A DNA stretch of 35,600 bases from a virus, in the IMG/VR virus record IMGVR_UViG_3300025889_000047, positions 1 to 35,600 of that record. One strand, 5' to 3'. Every line of letters begins with the position of its first letter. The stretch's first letter is position 1. Position numbers and translations under genes: made by a program. Positions 4,823 through 22,596 of the stretch are shown here, in pieces. A model generated the notes under the pieces. It worked only from the letters and a program-made list of their open reading frames with translations. It had not been told where the DNA came from and did no database searches.

Positions 4823-5509
4823 ATGACTGATTACTCAAAGACAACAAACTTTGCATCAAAAGATGCTTTAGCCAGTGGCAATGCAAACAAAATTGTAAAG
4901 GGCACTGAGATTGATGATGAGTTTACCGCAATACAAACAGCTATTGCAACTAAAGCAAACTCAATAAGCCCAACACTAACAGGCACACCACTGTCACCAA
5001 CTGCTGCTCCTGGCACTAATACAACACAGATTGCTACTACTGCTTTTGTTACTGCTGCTGATGTTGCCTCTGCGAGTATTATCACTGCTGCTTACGAGGC
5101 TGCTGATGATGTGCTATCTGATAGACTAACAACAGCAGAGGGCGAGATTGATACTCTTCAAACGGAGTCCTTGGACTACGAAGGTAGGGTATCTGTTCTT
5201 GAAGGTTTTTTTACTGGCAACTCTTTATTAGGAAATAATGGTTATTATATACTACCAGATGGTTTAACAGTGCAGTGGGGTAGAATAACTGGCATTGGAA
5301 CTTTTACAACAGCAACTGTAACTTTTAACATAACTTTTCCAAACGCTGTCTATGCAGTTTTCTGTAGTGAATATGACGGTGAAGAGTATAACAACTCTAC
5401 TGGTGCTGGTCTATATGTGAAGAACAATTCTTGGACTACTTCTGGTTGTGTTCTAGTAAACGATGCTGGAGATAGGGCAGGTGCTTTCTGGTTAGCAATA
5501 GGTAAATAA
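4823..5509 (+). CDS. Short tail fibre / appendage protein with gp53-like C-terminal domain
   Basis: A 228-residue protein. The N-terminal part (DEFTAIQTAIATKAN, then a 'PTLTGTPLSPTAAPGTNTTQ' type linker) matches the attachment segment of many phage fibres. Residues 95-130 form a short coiled coil (LSDRLTTAEGEIDTLQ). The C-terminal domain reads NGYYILPDGLTVQWGRI followed by FPNAVYAVF, the signature of the gp53-like tail-fibre tip domain. I infer a trimeric appendage, a second receptor-binding element separate from the long fibre at 34336/545. It starts three bases after the nozzle stop. Confidence 0.72.
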   Translation: MTDYSKTTNFASKDALASGNANKIVKGTEIDDEFTAIQTAIATKANSISPTLTGTPLSPTAAPGTNTTQIATTAFVTAADVASASIITAAYEAADDVLSDRLTTAEGEIDTLQTESLDYEGRVSVLEGFFTGNSLLGNNGYYILPDGLTVQWGRITGIGTFTTATVTFNITFPNAVYAVFCSEYDGEEYNNSTGAGLYVKNNSWTTSGCVLVNDAGDRAGAFWLAIGK

Positions 5510-15606: not shown

Positions 15607-15997
15607 GCTTCCTCCGGCTTTCCAAATAGTTATCAAGCTGTTTATCTTGATACACAGTGAAGTGTTTGATCCCTTCTTTCTCACACCACTGTCCCATTGT
15701 TAGTTTACTTCCCTTTCGTACCTTCTTGTTTGGATCAGAAAGTACAAACACCAACTCATAGTCTGGCAAGCTGTCTCGTATTGACTTGTACTTAAGTGTG
15801 TCACCTGGACGAAAGAAACCCTTACACTCAATCAACACATCATCAATAACAAAGTCAGGTTTATAATTACGTTTCATTACATAGGGTAAAGAAAACGGTT
15901 CATACTGATAGCCCTTGCCAGAATTGTTTGAAGCAAACTTAGCCTCAAGGCTGCTCCTGTACCTGCTGTTTTTTAGAGTCTTCTTTCTGATTGGCAT
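15584..15997 (-). CDS. Endonuclease I (T7 gp3-like Holliday-junction resolvase)
   Basis: A 137-residue nuclease starting MPIRKKTLKNSRYRSSLEAK at 15997, a length close to T7 endonuclease I (149). The catalytic set of this PD-(D/E)xK enzyme is visible: Glu near residue 18 in SSLEAKFA, then PDFVIDDVLIECKG with the Asp, Glu and Lys of the active site. It cuts branched DNA such as Holliday junctions and helps degrade host DNA and resolve concatemers before packaging. The start lies within the exonuclease gene and has only a weak ribosome site, so coupling to upstream translation is likely. The longer open frame upstream is not supported. Confidence 0.87.
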   Translation of the reverse strand: MPIRKKTLKNSRYRSSLEAKFASNNSGKGYQYEPFSLPYVMKRNYKPDFVIDDVLIECKGFFRPGDTLKYKSIRDSLPDYELVFVLSDPNKKVRKGSKLTMGQWCEKEGIKHFTVYQDKQLDNYLESRRKHEDSSDT

Positions 15998-16697
15998 TAT
16001 GAAAGTCCATTGGCATTGTTCTATTTCGTTGAAGCATCCATAGTAGGTGGCTGTTCTCAACAGCCCTTTGGAAGCCATCCTCCCCAAACTCTTTAATGTA
16101 GATATCAATAATGGTGTTATCCCAATCTTCTCTTGGCGTACTGTCCAAAAGTTTCTCAGCTTTTCTTGGGCCAATGCCATTGATCCCAATAATGTTGTCA
16201 ATCTTGTCGCCAGTCAACATCTGCGTGTAGAAAAACCTAGTACCTGATTCTTCCGTTACCTCTTTCCACTCCTTCTTTACGTAGTTATAGTGAATTCCAG
16301 GAACCATTAGCAGGTCTTTATCAATGGTTGCTATGACAGTATCTTCAGTCTGCGATAAAGACAGTGCATCGTCAGCTTCCATCCCATCAACAACTTGTGC
16401 GCTGTATTGCTTTATTAGATAAGCCCTAACATTTTCGTAGTGATAGGGTTTCTTTGCGCCTGATCTGTTTTCCTTGTAATCACTCCTAATCTTATGTCTA
16501 AAGTTGTTTTTACCAGTTAGAAATATCTTATAGGATTCACATTGCGTATCCTTGATAATCCCATTTACAAACAACTTACAACTATGTAGCGTAAACGAAT
16601 CAGGGTCGGCCGAAACCAACCCTGTTTTCTTGTCTGTCTTTTGGCAAGCAAACCCTATCCGATAAACAATAGGGTCGCCATCAATCAGAAGTTTCAT
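15945..16697 (-). CDS. 5'-3' exonuclease (T7 gp6-like, FEN/PIN fold)
   Basis: A 250-residue protein starting MKLLIDGDPIVYRIGFACQ at 16697. Acidic metal ligands appear in order: the N-terminal D-G-D, the loop VDGMEADDALSL, IATIDKDLL, then the DNA-binding helix-three-turn-helix GDKIDNIIGINGIGPRKAEK. It removes RNA primers and degrades DNA from 5' ends. The C-terminal tail is Gln/Lys-rich and low in complexity. The GGTGA ribosome site of this gene lies within or directly beside the right (R') box of the attC-like site immediately upstream, so cassette insertion occurred right at its translation start. It overlaps the endonuclease gene by 53 bases. Confidence 0.9.
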   Translation of the reverse strand: MKLLIDGDPIVYRIGFACQKTDKKTGLVSADPDSFTLHSCKLFVNGIIKDTQCESYKIFLTGKNNFRHKIRSDYKENRSGAKKPYHYENVRAYLIKQYSAQVVDGMEADDALSLSQTEDTVIATIDKDLLMVPGIHYNYVKKEWKEVTEESGTRFFYTQMLTGDKIDNIIGINGIGPRKAEKLLDSTPREDWDNTIIDIYIKEFGEDGFQRAVENSHLLWMLQRNRTMPMDFHNANQKEDSKKQQVQEQP

Positions 16698-16704
16698 AGT
16701 TTCA

Positions 16705-16776
16705 CCAATAACAAATCGTGTAAGTCGCTCTGCTCGGACTGCGACGCGCAGCCACTTCACAGGGCAGTTATAACGC
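16705..16776 (-). other. Integron attC-like recombination site
   Basis: Read on the - strand, the site starts with R'' GCGTTATAAC (16776-16767), a five-base spacer, then L'' TGTgAAGTgGC (16761-16751), a variable loop with its own small hairpin CTGCG/CGCAG, L' GCgACTTACA (16728-16719), a six-base spacer and R' GTTATTG (16712-16706). L'' and L' pair over nine bases with one mismatch and one unpaired G in L''. The 5- and 6-base spacers, the extrahelical base in L'' and the orientation (3' of the gene) match known attC sites such as that of aadA. R' departs from the GTTRRRY consensus after GTT, and R'' from RYYYAAC. Confidence 0.7.
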
Positions 16777-16972
16777 TATTGCGCTAGTCGCCCCCTCGTA
16801 CTTCACACAGAACTTAGGGTTAATCGAAAAACCATCCTGGTCAACTAACCAGCCCTCTGGGATTACAATGCTGCCCTTTCCGGTAAATCCGCAAACTTTA
16901 AATACTCGGTTCTCGCCTATAATTTTTGCGTAATCGCCTAGCTTAAACTCCATTGCTCACCTCGCGTTATAA
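16712..16972 (-). mobile_element. Candidate integron gene cassette (261 bases)
   Basis: The unit runs on the - strand from TTATAACGC (16972 downward) through a ribosome site, the 61-residue gene and the attC-like site to the G of R' at 16712. In a cassette the recombination point is G/TT, and the 5' end of a cassette completes its own R' when it circularises. Here G plus TTATAACGC gives GTTATAACGC, the exact reverse complement of R'' GCGTTATAAC. That explains the inverted repeats (16767-16776 and 16964-16973) flanking the gene. Size, tight packing and single ORF fit a cassette. No integrase gene is present, so insertion by a host integron integrase at a secondary site is inferred. Confidence 0.68.
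16768..16953 (-). CDS. Cassette-borne 61-aa protein, SH3/KOW-like
   Basis: A 61-residue protein, MEFKLGDYAKIIGENRVFKV at the start, with alternating short strands and glycines like small SH3 or KOW barrels; no catalytic motif. GAGGTG lies seven bases before the ATG. The stop TAA is inside the R'' box of the attC-like site, as is usual in integron cassettes. Base composition looks more GC-rich than the neighbouring replication genes. Integron cassettes often code small proteins of unknown role, including antidefence and toxin-antitoxin functions; nothing here identifies which. It is co-oriented with the replication operon and would be transcribed with it. Confidence 0.75.
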   Translation of the reverse strand: MEFKLGDYAKIIGENRVFKVCGFTGKGSIVIPEGWLVDQDGFSINPKFCVKYEGATSAIAL

Positions 16973-17003
16973 CAACAGCAATCAGTTCGCTGCGAAGAGT
17001 CTT

Positions 17004-17162
17004 TTAGTCGCTAATCTTGATCGCATCAGCGTAGTAAAAACTTTCATACTGAGCGTCCTCCGAAAACTCAGGAGCCTTTGCTTCTGCTTCCTCTGCGCTG
17101 TCGGCTTCCACGTCTACATAATCAACATATTTATAGGTTAGCTTTACTCTATATATAGCCAT
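17004..17162 (-). CDS. Small acidic protein, function unknown
   Basis: A 52-residue gene. It reads MAIYRVKLTYKYVDYVDVEA, then SAEEAEAKAPEFSEDAQYE and ends in a short Tyr-rich tail. The shape (beta hairpin, acidic Ala/Glu helix, strand) is common in small phage proteins of unknown role. A GAGGTG ribosome site lies about nine bases before the ATG. It follows the 45-residue gene by five bases and precedes the cassette by 31 bases. Codons look GC-richer than in the polymerase gene, so this short stretch may be a region that gains accessory genes. Confidence 0.72.
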   Translation of the reverse strand: MAIYRVKLTYKYVDYVDVEADSAEEAEAKAPEFSEDAQYESFYYADAIKISD

Positions 17163-17167
17163 GCGAA

Positions 17168-17305
17168 TTACACCTCTTCACCTAAAATTATCTTTCCCAT
17201 AATATGACTAACTGGCTGATCGTATTCATTCCACACACCTAAGCTCAACATCTTCATTATCCTATAGTACGTAGTGTTATCTTTAATGTGGGCATCCTTG
17301 CCCAT
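17168..17305 (-). CDS. Small 45-aa protein, function unknown
   Basis: An open frame that reads MGKDAHIKDNTTYYRIMKML and continues to GKIILGEEV. It begins seven bases after the SSB stop and ends five bases before the next small gene, so it fills the gap exactly. There is no clear ribosome site before this ATG; re-initiation after the SSB stop would be needed. A later ATG (MKMLSL) has AGGA close upstream and is an alternative start. No family is recognised. Confidence 0.5.
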   Translation of the reverse strand: MGKDAHIKDNTTYYRIMKMLSLGVWNEYDQPVSHIMGKIILGEEV

Positions 17306-17312
17306 AAGTTAA

Positions 17313-17951
17313 TTAAAATGGGATGTCATCATCAAACTCTTCGTGCGCCTCTGACTTCACCTCCTTGAGTGTAGGTTTACTTGACTCTGTAATACGCTTC
17401 TCATGAATGTACTTAGCCAACCCAAACAGAGACTTGATTGCAGGGCTATCGCTGTCATCAGCACCAGCAGAACAGTGATCAGTAAAAGAGGACTTGCCAA
17501 CTGAATCACGATACTTAGCTGGGATGGGAGCGATACTAACAATCTCATCGTACAACTTATCTTGTACTTGTTTGTTTTTAACCACAACAAAACAAGGCAT
17601 ATTCAACACAGAGTCCCAATCAGCTACATCATCTTCTTCTGCTGTTGTATTGAATGCCTTGTAGTATTCAAGCTCCTTGCCAAGTCCAGACATAGTACGA
17701 AAGATATTGAATGGCTTAGTCCACATAATACGTGGTACTTCTTTACCATCAATGGTAACTGGGTTATCTAAGATCTCAATACAGAGTGAGACCTGTTGAC
17801 ATGGTGGCTTCTCTTCACCTGCATAGTTACGCTCTTGCAAACCAAGATCAGCTACATAAAGCAGTCGTCCTTCGTGCTCACCAGGTTTTAAGTTTGCGTA
17901 TTCAGACTTGGTGCTTCCAACTTCTTGACTCATTTTTCTTTCAAAAGCCAT
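17313..17951 (-). CDS. Single-stranded DNA-binding protein (gp2.5-like)
   Basis: A 212-residue protein with an OB-like middle (GRLLYVADLGLQERNYAGEE, then QQVSLCIEILDN) and the typical flexible acidic tail ending EEFDDDIPF. That tail is the classic docking site for polymerase and helicase in bacterial and T7 SSBs. It would coat single strands at the replication fork. AAGGAG lies upstream of the ATG at 17951, and the polymerase stop lies 12 bases before its start codon. Length is near T7 gp2.5 (232). A central insertion with SSFTDHCSAGADDSDSP is not diagnostic of any subfamily. Confidence 0.83.
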   Translation of the reverse strand: MAFERKMSQEVGSTKSEYANLKPGEHEGRLLYVADLGLQERNYAGEEKPPCQQVSLCIEILDNPVTIDGKEVPRIMWTKPFNIFRTMSGLGKELEYYKAFNTTAEEDDVADWDSVLNMPCFVVVKNKQVQDKLYDEIVSIAPIPAKYRDSVGKSSFTDHCSAGADDSDSPAIKSLFGLAKYIHEKRITESSKPTLKEVKSEAHEEFDDDIPF

Positions 17952-17963
17952 GTGGCAATCTCC

Positions 17964-19814
17964 TTAGTGGATTTCAGAATAATCTTTAGCGAATTTTATA
18001 TCACACTCTAGTTCACGGTTTAAGTGTAACAACGTATTGACTTTTTGTATAGACCTATTCAATAACTCCTTTATATCATTTTGTTTTGTTTCGTGCAGTT
18101 CTAAGATTACTTCGTCGTGAAACTGTGCTGTAAGCTGAGGTCTTTCCTGAATGATATAGGCAACCCACATATCAAAACAGAAAGTACCAGTGCCTTGATT
18201 TAACGTACTGAATTTGTCCTTATCAGTTTTAAGATGGTAGTATATCTTTGATACAGGATTCCATAGCCACAGCTTTCCGTCTATGTTTCTTACTCCTACA
18301 TTATTCGCTATCTCCTTTAGCGACCAGTTACGATCCCAGTATGCCTTGTGTATTCTTTTAGCACCATGCTCACTGATGTCCAGTTGACGCGATAAGGTAG
18401 TTATCCCAGCACCATAAGTACAAGCATAGTTTCCACCCTTGTATATGTGTCTGATCCTAACCACTTCTTCTGGTTGGATGCCATCCTTGTAATCTGCAAC
18501 CTCCTGTTCAGTTAAAGCATTGGCAGACAATGCAAGGTCAAGGTGTGGATCAAAGTCTGGTGTCATCATCTCCTTAACGTACTCTGGGTCGTAGTCCCAC
18601 ATGTAATGCTGTTTGGTACGATCCTCAAGGGATGCCATGTCTGAACCACAAAGAACATAATCATCATTGCGTACTGTAAGTAGTGATCTTATCTCAGCAC
18701 CATACGGCTTACGGCTTGATGGGATGTTCACACAGACAGCATGTTTAAACCTGAGTGTATTGGTTAATCCCTGTATCTCAGCCTTTACATATCCGTCTGA
18801 GTCTACGTTATCAAGGAACCCTTTTACCAATCCTATTCTATGCTTAACTACAGTCATAGTCTCAAGGTGAGATAGCTCTGGATGTTTCTTAACCAGCTTA
18901 GACACAGACTCACACAGCGATCCATCACTACCCTTAATTTGTGGGATAGCCTTTTTTGTTTCTTTGGCAAACTTAAATGTCTGGGGCTTCCAGCCAAGTG
19001 ATTCTAACCAAGACTTAATTTGCTGAACACTACCAGGATTTGGTGGCTCTTTACCAACTGCTGTTATGATGGTCTCGTCTGTATCAAATAGTACACCGGC
19101 TTCATCAGTTATGTTCTTCCAACGCTCACCAGTAACAGACAAAGAACCATCAATCTTGTATGGCTTTGATGGTCTCTTATTCTTTTTGGTTATAGGAACA
19201 CTTGGCATTACAACTGAAAGTGCTTCAACTGATTCTTGATAGGACTGTTCTAGTTGAGACAGTAATGACTTAGCCTTCTCAACATCCAACTTCCACTTAG
19301 ACTTCTCTTGAAGCGCAGCACACTTCATCTTAAGTGACAGGTACTTGATAATCCTATCATGATTCTCATCGTTGTATAGTTTTGTAAGATAGGATAGCAG
19401 GTCTTCCCACAAAACAGCGTTAATCTTAACGTCCTCAACACAGCGTCTACAATACTCACCAGTTGTCAGGTTCTCCCAATCATCAATCTTTGGCTTCTTA
19501 ATTCCAAACCTTTCACCCCATGCTTCAAGGCCATGCTTGGGTAGCTCTGGGTAGACGTACCAAGATAAAGCAAGGGTGTCTATGATCCTAGCTTGTATTT
19601 TGATTTTAAGGATTCTAGCCAGAACAGGAGCATCATAACGGGCAAAGTTATGCCCAATAATATTATCGTCAGGGCTAAGACCGGAAAGAAAACTACGCAT
19701 ATCATCATATAGGGTGTGCACTTCAATGTGTCCATCGTCTTTCTGTACAGCCATGCAGTGAATCTTTGTTGCATCTATCCCATCCGTTTCTATGTCAATC
19801 ACATAATCAGACAT
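17964..19814 (-). CDS. DNA polymerase I-type (family A) with 3'-5' exonuclease
   Basis: A 616-residue replicase starting MSDYVIDIETDG at 19814, inside the previous gene; another ATG five codons upstream is possible. The 3'-5' exonuclease has D7-x-E9 and GHNFARYD at 54-61. Polymerase motif A is SDMASLEDR (D392, E397), motif B RHIYKGGNYACTYG (K459, Y463, Y467) and motif C FHDEV (H566-D567-E568). The residue equivalent to E. coli Phe762 is Tyr463, as in T7 and many lytic marine phages. There is no 5'-3' exonuclease domain; that activity is encoded separately at 15945. The third exonuclease motif region (YCRRCVEDV) has an unusual Tyr-to-Asp spacing. Confidence 0.94.
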   Translation of the reverse strand: MSDYVIDIETDGIDATKIHCMAVQKDDGHIEVHTLYDDMRSFLSGLSPDDNIIGHNFARYDAPVLARILKIKIQARIIDTLALSWYVYPELPKHGLEAWGERFGIKKPKIDDWENLTTGEYCRRCVEDVKINAVLWEDLLSYLTKLYNDENHDRIIKYLSLKMKCAALQEKSKWKLDVEKAKSLLSQLEQSYQESVEALSVVMPSVPITKKNKRPSKPYKIDGSLSVTGERWKNITDEAGVLFDTDETIITAVGKEPPNPGSVQQIKSWLESLGWKPQTFKFAKETKKAIPQIKGSDGSLCESVSKLVKKHPELSHLETMTVVKHRIGLVKGFLDNVDSDGYVKAEIQGLTNTLRFKHAVCVNIPSSRKPYGAEIRSLLTVRNDDYVLCGSDMASLEDRTKQHYMWDYDPEYVKEMMTPDFDPHLDLALSANALTEQEVADYKDGIQPEEVVRIRHIYKGGNYACTYGAGITTLSRQLDISEHGAKRIHKAYWDRNWSLKEIANNVGVRNIDGKLWLWNPVSKIYYHLKTDKDKFSTLNQGTGTFCFDMWVAYIIQERPQLTAQFHDEVILELHETKQNDIKELLNRSIQKVNTLLHLNRELECDIKFAKDYSEIH

Positions 19815-20094
19815 TGCTTTTATCTTCATGTAACAGTTGATACTTATACAGACCATTGGAAACGTATGTTCTTTCCACTGTTCTACTACCAAATTTTTTC
19901 TTTCTTAAGTTTCTTATCATAGCACTAGTGCTACTAGCACTTTTCATTCCAGCACAAAACATTATTTCTTCAACGCTCATTGGTGGTTTTCCTTCCATGA
20001 ACTCACGGACTCTTTCAAAACCTTTTGATAGCCTATCTTGATCTCTTTCTGGCTGGTAATCTGCGCCATCAAAATTATATAGTTTATCTTTCAT
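19807..20094 (-). CDS. Small winged-helix-like protein
   Basis: A 95-residue basic protein starting MKDKLYNFDGADY at 20094; an ATG two codons earlier is open, but AGAGGGG is better spaced for 20094, which also overlaps the helicase stop (ATGA). Residues 40-80 (MSVEEIMFCAGMKSASSTSA, then NLRKKKFGSRTVERT) look like a helix-turn-helix followed by a basic wing. It may bind DNA at the fork or act as a regulator (inference). It sits between the helicase and polymerase genes, overlaps the polymerase start by eight bases, and would be produced with them. Confidence 0.65.
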   Translation of the reverse strand: MKDKLYNFDGADYQPERDQDRLSKGFERVREFMEGKPPMSVEEIMFCAGMKSASSTSAMIRNLRKKKFGSRTVERTYVSNGLYKYQLLHEDKSNV

Positions 20095-21755
20095 TGCCAT
20101 CCCCTCTTAGGTTCAAGGTAAGTTACAGTTGGTTCATCAAAGAACACATCGCAATTGTATGTCTGTCCGTACTCACGATCAAACAACATATAAAACTGTG
20201 ACATGTTCTTTTCTTCTTGTGGGCAGTCATCTGTTCTATCACGACTAATCCCATGACCATAGTGAAACCATTTCTCCATAGCACGTGACCCGGTAAACTC
20301 ACTACTCAATACCTTAGCCCCAGATTCGTGTGGTTTAGAACCTTTTGGTTTTGGGTTTACATGGGAATAACAGAATAGAGTAATAGGATAAGACTGAACC
20401 AGGTCAGCCATGTCCGTTGCTATCTCATTCAGTTTATCGTTTGCCTCTGACGAAGAATAACGTGATATCAGTGCTGTGAGTGGATCAAGAATAAAGATAT
20501 TGATGCCATCAAGCAAGTGCATTTCCTGTATTGCTGTTCTAATATCGCCCCAATCCCTACTTGCACCACGATCATAGAACCGCACCATTCCGTTCATGGA
20601 CAACAACGTACTTCTCAATAGCTCATCATCATACACCTTGTCAGGTCTAGTGAAGTCTACCTTAGCGTGTTTACTTGCCAGTTTCTTAGCTGTCCTGACT
20701 GGGCTGTTCTCAAGGTCAAACATACCAACCCTGACTTTCTCGTTAAAGATCAGGTGGTGAACCAGTTGATGCTGGTGATCTGTCTTACCAATCTTTGGTG
20801 CTGCACCTACACAATGAATGGTGTGGGGTCTTATACCAAAACAAGCCCTAGTTACAGTAGGCCAAGGAAATGGGATACCCATCTGCGGGCGTTCCATAGC
20901 CTTTTCTATTACGTCTACTACGTCAACAACCTCGCCCATTCGTACAGGCTGTGCATTCCAAACAGCTAGGTCAAACAACTCTGCACTACGACCAGCCACC
21001 AGCATATCACTGGCATCCTTGAGTGGTAGAGTAACAGCCTTAGCGGTTGGGAAAATCTTAATGCAGTCCCTCAGTGCTTTCTGTCCTGCTTGATCCATGT
21101 CAAAACAAAGTATGATCTCATCAAAATTATTTAGGTACTTACGATTGTTAATCAAGTCACTAGCTGCACCCTGTGCGCCTCTGGTAAGGGACACAACCGC
21201 TGGTGTGTACTTGCTGTACTTTGCTGGTCTGTTCTCAATGATGGATTGAAACAGGGACATAGCATCTAGTCTACCCTCAGTGATAAACAACTTCTTACCA
21301 CTGCTAGTTAGGTGTGAACCCCATAGATCTATGTCTCCCTTACGATCTCCTATTGCACTAAATCCCTTTTCTAAGGCATCTCGTACCTCGTATCCTACGA
21401 TCTCTCCATTACGAGTATCAGGATAGTAATGCTTAATTATCTTCCCAGTTTCTTCTGAGTGTTCAACCTTTACTGAGAAGTGTTCTACTGTGTCCTTGCT
21501 CAGTTTACGATCTACGATCTCAGAACTTTGTAAGCTCTTGATCTTATTAATATTCATCTTAGTTTCCTGTCTAACCATAGGAACAACTACTGAACTGTAT
21601 GGTTTTGGATTCCCATTGATATCAGATGCATTGTAGTACTTTCCACAAGCAAAACAGTAGCCATCTTCTGTTCCATCGTCTTGAAGAAACACTTGTATTC
21701 CGTCACTACTACCACACTCACATGACAATCTCTTATTTAAACACTTGCCACCCAT
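20091..21755 (-). CDS. Primase-helicase (T7 gp4-like)
   Basis: A 554-residue fused primase and replicative helicase, close to T7 gp4 (566). The zinc-binding N-terminus has CECG at 12-15 and CFACG at 34-38. The Toprim primase core shows ITEGRLDAM (Glu160) and LCFDMDQAG (Asp219, Asp221). The RecA-like helicase has Walker A GAAPKIGKT at 317-325, Walker B IFILDPL (Asp424), and a SHVNPKP switch near 464-470. It unwinds DNA and makes RNA primers at the fork. GGAG precedes the ATG; the start overlaps the upstream stop (TAATG). The HQHQ after Walker A is unusual for the family. Confidence 0.93.
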   Translation of the reverse strand: MGGKCLNKRLSCECGSSDGIQVFLQDDGTEDGYCFACGKYYNASDINGNPKPYSSVVVPMVRQETKMNINKIKSLQSSEIVDRKLSKDTVEHFSVKVEHSEETGKIIKHYYPDTRNGEIVGYEVRDALEKGFSAIGDRKGDIDLWGSHLTSSGKKLFITEGRLDAMSLFQSIIENRPAKYSKYTPAVVSLTRGAQGAASDLINNRKYLNNFDEIILCFDMDQAGQKALRDCIKIFPTAKAVTLPLKDASDMLVAGRSAELFDLAVWNAQPVRMGEVVDVVDVIEKAMERPQMGIPFPWPTVTRACFGIRPHTIHCVGAAPKIGKTDHQHQLVHHLIFNEKVRVGMFDLENSPVRTAKKLASKHAKVDFTRPDKVYDDELLRSTLLSMNGMVRFYDRGASRDWGDIRTAIQEMHLLDGINIFILDPLTALISRYSSSEANDKLNEIATDMADLVQSYPITLFCYSHVNPKPKGSKPHESGAKVLSSEFTGSRAMEKWFHYGHGISRDRTDDCPQEEKNMSQFYMLFDREYGQTYNCDVFFDEPTVTYLEPKRGWQ

Positions 21756-22451: not shown

Positions 22452-22596
22452 CGTTACAAATAACTGCACTCTTGTTAATCACCACAATACAGTCAGTACA
22501 CATATCAAGATACTCCTCAGACTTAGGATGGTCTGTGGGGTACTTGAGTGTTACCTCGTAATTACTTAATTCTGAATCACAAACACAACATTTCAT
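22441..22596 (-). CDS. Small zinc-ribbon-like protein
   Basis: A 51-residue gene: MKCCVCDSELSNYEVTLKYP, a short charged loop, then YLDMCTDCIVVINKS. The two C-x-x-C pairs (CCVC and CTDC) make a likely zinc knuckle. Tiny proteins of this kind are common in marine and enteric phages; function unknown. The ribosome site (GAGA) is weak. It is read after a promoter-plus-terminator element (22608-22702), so its expression may depend on read-through of that hairpin. Confidence 0.72.
   Translation of the reverse strand: MKCCVCDSELSNYEVTLKYPTDHPKSEEYLDMCTDCIVVINKSAVICNELL

Follow-up and report, generated by a model that had tools for sequence, protein, structure and literature searches.

A putative lone integron gene cassette, with its attC site, upstream of the exonuclease gene of a tailed phage

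The window (the whole stretch of DNA that was analysed, 35,600 bases, which is the entire viral record) belongs to a tailed phage, as indicated by its terminase, portal, and major head genes. A replication block runs leftward, with genes for a B12-dependent ribonucleotide reductase, a metallophosphoesterase, a 5′-3′ exonuclease, a family A DNA polymerase, and a primase/helicase. These identities, at the level of PHROG and Pfam, bear out the phage replication operon in which an earlier note, made from the sequence alone, had placed an integron-type gene cassette. Gene cassettes are mobile gene units, normally moved by bacterial integrons. A lytic phage is suggested, and no integrase, repressor, or integron integrase occurs among the ORFs searched (a subset of all ORFs). 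TIGR02249, the integron integrase family, has no match in the record, itself possibly a fragment. The record contains neither a complete integron (an intI gene with an attI site) nor a CALIN (at least two attC sites close together); a single attC is present in the window. The features at the locus are the following (positions in the window).

15945-16697, minus strand: 5′-3′ exonuclease gene (PHROG 107, E 2.9e-59), downstream of the unit; 85-87% identity in close relatives.
16701-17312, minus strand: 612-bp stretch missing from ten close relatives, with the putative cassette, a 52-aa ORF (17004-17162), and a 45-aa ORF (17168-17305).
16703-16776, plus strand: predicted attC, canonical top strand (from our own profile, a covariance model, and the boxes and spacers), with R″ CACCAATAAC, spacer AAATC, L″ GTG[T]AAGT, a variable loop, L′ ACTTCAC, spacer AGGGCA, and R′ GTTATAACGC.
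16712-16972, no strand assigned: putative cassette unit of 261 bp, with predicted crossovers at 16711/16712 and 16972/16973 (AA/C on the plus strand, G/TT on the minus strand).
16721, plus strand: candidate first extrahelical base, the T of L″ (GTG[T]AAGT pairs with ACTTCAC); the predicted minus-strand fold leaves the facing A unpaired.
16767-16776, plus strand: R′ box of the attC, containing its core site G/TTATAACGC; it matches the reverse complement of 16964-16973 perfectly.
16768-16953, minus strand: gene for a 61-aa protein (ORF list), which runs in the direction of the phage operon and opposite to the attC.
16964-16973, plus strand: GCGTTATAAC, at the unit's other end and presumed to be the R″ half of the attC in its circular form; G/TTATAACGC on the minus strand, complementary to R′ at 10 of 10 positions.
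17313-17951, minus strand: 212-aa phage gene (PHROG 862, function unknown), upstream of the unit; in relatives the exonuclease gene is directly next to it.

Read on the minus strand, the parts listed in the earlier note are all present: the 61-codon ORF, GCGTTATAAC, a 5-base spacer, paired L boxes, a 6-base spacer, and GTTATTG. The ORF is bracketed on that strand by the exact inverted repeat GTTATAACGC/GCGTTATAAC. As the note also stated, the two 10-mers are exact reverse complements and define a circle-like unit of 261 bp bounded at G/TT (minus strand), with a start complementary to R″ (16767-16776/16964-16973). The R″ and R′ boxes pair as ATAAC/GTTAT in situ, and with all 10 pairs in the circular form. 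The L boxes pair as GTG[T]AAGT/ACTTCAC, with spacers of 5 and 6 bases and the extrahelical base in L″; a second register of the L boxes is possible, the extra base being then on the other arm. The unpaired G described in L″ by the earlier note agrees with one of these two registers, but the lowest-energy fold of the minus strand leaves instead an A unpaired in the 3′ arm, which is complementary to T16721 of the plus-strand L″. The minus strand (the bottom strand if the attC is on the plus strand) folds in situ as an attC-like hairpin, which explains the foldable site seen there in the first reading. The folding energy of the site in situ is not unusual.

An attC profile in the style of HattCI, covering spacers, L boxes, R boxes, and pairing, was trained on 29 known integron sites (class 1 plasmid integrons, a Vibrio phage array, and Shewanella arrays). 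With this profile, positions 16703-16776 of the plus strand score 44.1 bits in situ and 54.7 bits as the reconstituted circular form; the 29 real attC sites, left out in turn, score 26-64 bits. The best of 1000 shuffled windows gives 40.0 bits and none reaches 44.1 (Gumbel P 8e-4). There is no match of at least 36 bits in 716,830 bases (0.72 Mb) of other viral contigs, a background formed by the contigs with chance matches to a 16-mer. The attC clusters of phages TJE1 and H101, which have been studied by experiment and are both outside the training set, are recovered at 39-52 bits. A covariance model of the same kind of sites reports the window site on the plus strand, with nothing on the minus strand, at 14.1 bits (E 0.26); run with identical settings and filters off, it gives the TJE1 sites 16-20 bits, a little above the window site. 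This match appears supportive but modest and is not decisive. The same model gives 16.8 bits, above the attC, to a hairpin TAACAAG..GTTA at 22455-22483; it has no L boxes and was taken as a false positive. A search of Rfam found nothing.

The pairing architecture alone is weak evidence, with 239 matches in 400 shuffled windows. Architecture together with a circularisation signature of at least 10 bp is absent from all 400 shuffles; other sequence, 582 kb in total, has it only in known class 1 attC sites. The profile score, the shuffled windows, and the circle signature speak for a real attC site, as first proposed; judged by sequence, the element of the window would be such a site, and its recombination is predicted. 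With the architecture so frequent by chance and a folding energy in situ that is not unusual, the locus might be read without any integron element, as an ordinary phage gene whose flanking inverted repeat and hairpin arose by chance (such as a terminator or a small repeat resembling a transposon), and the sole clear protein homologue is indeed an ordinary phage gene. This reading is nevertheless very improbable: two independent signals coincide, the profile score (P 8e-4) and the exact 10-mer GCGTTATAAC, of which 0.034 copies are expected per shuffled window; the partner of the 10-mer is <200 bp away in the right orientation; and there is neither a target duplication at the 10-mers nor a T-run terminator. 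A transposon with 10-bp ends was rejected on the same absence of a target duplication, and the conserved attC reaches outside those ends.

The profile also separates the two strands. In the 35 known attC sites (the 29 left-out training sites and 6 independent ones), the true strand always beats the other, by 15-46 bits. In the window, the plus strand beats the minus strand by 19 bits in situ (44.1 vs. 25.1) and by 21 bits in the circular form (54.7 vs. 33.6). When the 1497 AAC sites of the window are ranked by spacer and L″, the plus reading comes 1st and the minus reading 363rd; the conserved attC sequence (the AAC-AA spacer, the L box, and the spacer before GTT) is on the plus strand. Since all the known sites favor their true strand, the predicted canonical attC is assigned to the plus strand. 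The minus strand, to which the attC had been attributed with the usual gene-then-attC order, is not supported for the site itself. A pairing-only test with the minus strand as top strand was set aside as blind to strand; the sequence profile reversed its strand call.

An ordinary minus-strand cassette, with the gene in sense, the top strand of the attC on the minus strand, and a normal bottom-strand insertion at G/TT, is a rather unlikely reading. It agrees with how the gene is laid out, its stop codon falling in the R box; the register TGT[G]AAGT/ACTTACA puts the extrahelical base at the canonical place, and the circular minus reading (33.6 bits) is over the 95th percentile of shuffled windows (30.7). 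In situ, on the other hand, the 25.1 bits of the minus strand fall among the shuffled windows (median best 22.8), 19 bits below the plus strand; none of the 35 known attC sites prefers the wrong strand, and the covariance model is silent on the minus strand.

A plus-strand attC makes the 61-aa gene antisense and puts the junctions at the R″ side, and both together would imply an inverted, top-strand insertion. To the right of 16973, no attC 5′ half is found (score −3.2, rank 251 of 1497), so that the circle was apparently opened at R″ and not, as in an ordinary insertion, at R′. Cassette genes usually, though not obligatorily, have the same sense as their attC and their stop near R″. The Vibrio phage array contains two annotated antisense genes besides the transposase.

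Alignment to the window holds on either side of the locus in the ten closest relatives examined, none of which has the unit. This agrees with the proposal that it would be missing from related phages. In these relatives, the 212-aa gene and the exonuclease gene are only a few bases apart; the window has 612 extra bases (16701-17312). The clean 261-bp junction expected upstream of the exonuclease is not confirmed: the relatives lack the 612 bp instead, and no exact empty site was found. That site, expected on the plus strand as CACCAATAACAACAGC (with the empty junction ...CACCAATAACAACAGCAATCAG...), is 25 bases long as predicted and is present in no contig searched; a search with a 16-mer was too short and returned chance matches. 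From these alignments, the unit is a lineage-specific difference, and most simply a gain. Because the relatives are without 612 bp and not 261, the cassette may have come with neighboring DNA, and the neighboring 340 bp are likewise foreign to the relatives. No homologues of the 45- and 52-aa ORFs were found in the loci compared. These two ORFs were rejected as further cassettes, there being no attC 5′ half there; the 52-aa ORF (17004-17162) has a weak match to a DpnD/PcfM-like family (Pfam E 0.0027). A second cassette holding the exonuclease was also discarded, since the exonuclease is conserved in place in the relatives.

In a more distant clade, the 212-aa gene and the exonuclease gene have a tRNA-Arg (TCT) gene at their junction. 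This junction (window 16701-17312; loci L019, L020, L022, L023, L025, and L026) thus occurs with a few bases, with 612 bp, or with the tRNA-Arg gene, and it appears to gather extra sequence. Elsewhere in the replication block, a 97-aa ORF (19807-20100) lies between the DNA polymerase and primase/helicase genes; a stretch at ~19816-20093 is missing in close relatives, a second lineage-specific small-gene difference.

The foreign character of the adjoining 340 bp also agrees with a remnant of a plus-strand array, in which the attC would end a lost cassette and the body of the unit would start a second cassette, its own attC having been deleted after R″; illegitimate recombination, and not an integrase, would then have acted. 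In an array, the normal order is indeed a plus-strand attC, then G/TTATAACGC, then a matching R″. However, such a remnant is distinctly unlikely, because without an attC 5′ half after 16973 the array would need to have been cut exactly at R″, and the left flank runs directly into the conserved exonuclease gene. No bacterial array with this cassette was found in a genome scan (with short exact peptide patterns only), in plasmids, or in phages; the matches in plasmid DNA are short and due to chance.

The anatomy of the 61-aa gene is compact, with the start just inside the boundary, the stop in the R box, and no room for a promoter. A ribosome-binding site GAGGTGAG follows G/TTATAACGC, and the TAA stop is inside the R box, within GCGTTATAAC as read on the minus strand. 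The protein belongs to no Pfam or PHROG family, and its AlphaFold model is unusable (mean pLDDT 45.6). The sole clear homologue is a protein of 65 aa (66% identity) encoded by an ordinary gene (4986-5183 in locus L002) of a viral contig of 42.9 kb that has no attC near this gene (best profile score 17.9); the cargo may therefore come from a phage. A 20-residue match in a Clostridia MAG, from the genome scan, was treated as uninformative. Between the gene and its homologue, dN is 0.28 and dS is saturated, as under purifying selection, which argues for a real, conserved protein.

A genuine integron gene cassette, present in the phage as one copy without integrase, with the attC on the plus strand, the gene antisense to it, and the whole inserted inverted, is the probable reading of the locus. 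It would accommodate the observed attC signature and its strand, the 10-bp circle signature, the conservation of the gene, and the absence in relatives. A circular cassette with a perfect 10-bp R″/R′ pair would have recombined with a site that contains GTT and precedes the phage exonuclease gene, presumably through an integron integrase in the host cell. The crossover would have taken place in the R″ box (AA/C on the plus strand, G/TT on the minus strand), probably via the folded top strand. Inserted inverted, the cassette would bring its gene in sense with the phage early operon, where expression could rely on phage transcription and on the gene's own ribosome-binding site. More tentatively, and with somewhat less than even confidence, we propose this whole course: a host integrase, an inverted top-strand insertion at the R″ box, and a gene silent in its array that is now cotranscribed with the phage early genes. 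Normally, recombination goes through the bottom strand far more often than through the top strand. The gene anatomy, which looks like that of the sense gene of an ordinary minus-strand cassette, would count against the inverted insertion and keeps the version of the earlier note alive. The cassette reading has further points against it: the modest covariance score, exceeded by that of the hairpin at 22455-22483; the missing exact empty site; no bacterial array with this cassette in the searches; and a sole clear homologue that is an ordinary phage gene. Recombination of the top strand shifts the crossover to the R″ box (Bouvier et al., PMC2727003), and for that reason an inverted, top-strand insertion would be the simplest account of crossovers at R″.

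If this is true, single insertions into phages occur and survive, single cassettes may be an overlooked route of gene gain in phages, and the window offers a natural case of the inverted top-strand attC insertion mainly known from laboratory assays. With a search for one attC and, at the opposite end of the unit, a perfect reverse complement of the R box, the frequency of lone cassettes could be measured.

The attC of the window resembles that of the class 1 aadA-type cassettes (TAACAATTCGTTCAAGCCG..CGGCTTAACTC..GTTA, compared with TAACAAATCGTGTAAGTCG..CCACTTCACAG..GTTA), with a match between TAACAAATCGTGTAAGTCG and TAACAATTCGTTCAAGCCG clear by eye. Both have spacers of 5 and 6 bases and one extrahelical base at the same place; the loops are different and the cargoes unrelated, the window being without a resistance gene. 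Single cassettes at secondary or attG sites outside integrons are described in bacteria and plasmids (Loot et al. 2024, as presented in PMC12901181 and PMC12444791), and cassettes at secondary sites outside integrons were reported earlier (Recchia and Hall 1995, as cited in PMC10127599). As far as these accounts go, they have in common with the window that a lone cassette, away from any integron, occupies a short target with GTT; the targets described there are bacterial or plasmid and involve the R′ box, whereas in the window the target is a phage and the junction is at the R″ box.

Clusters of attC sites without integrase (CALINs) are known in the virulent phages TJE1, H101/PH101, and P12002L (Qi et al. 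2023, PMC9892861). As in the window, the attC sites are there in a phage genome without an integrase. A phage had to have two or more attC sites within 3 kb to be listed in that survey (PMC9892861), so that lone cassettes were invisible to it. Its phage CALINs therefore have at least two attC sites by rule, whereas the cassette of the window has one attC and one gene, inverted and inside the replication operon. The carriage of cassettes by phages, considered rare in the earlier note, was thus already reported, including in virulent phages (PMC9892861); what would be new is the single, inverted cassette in a phage replication operon.
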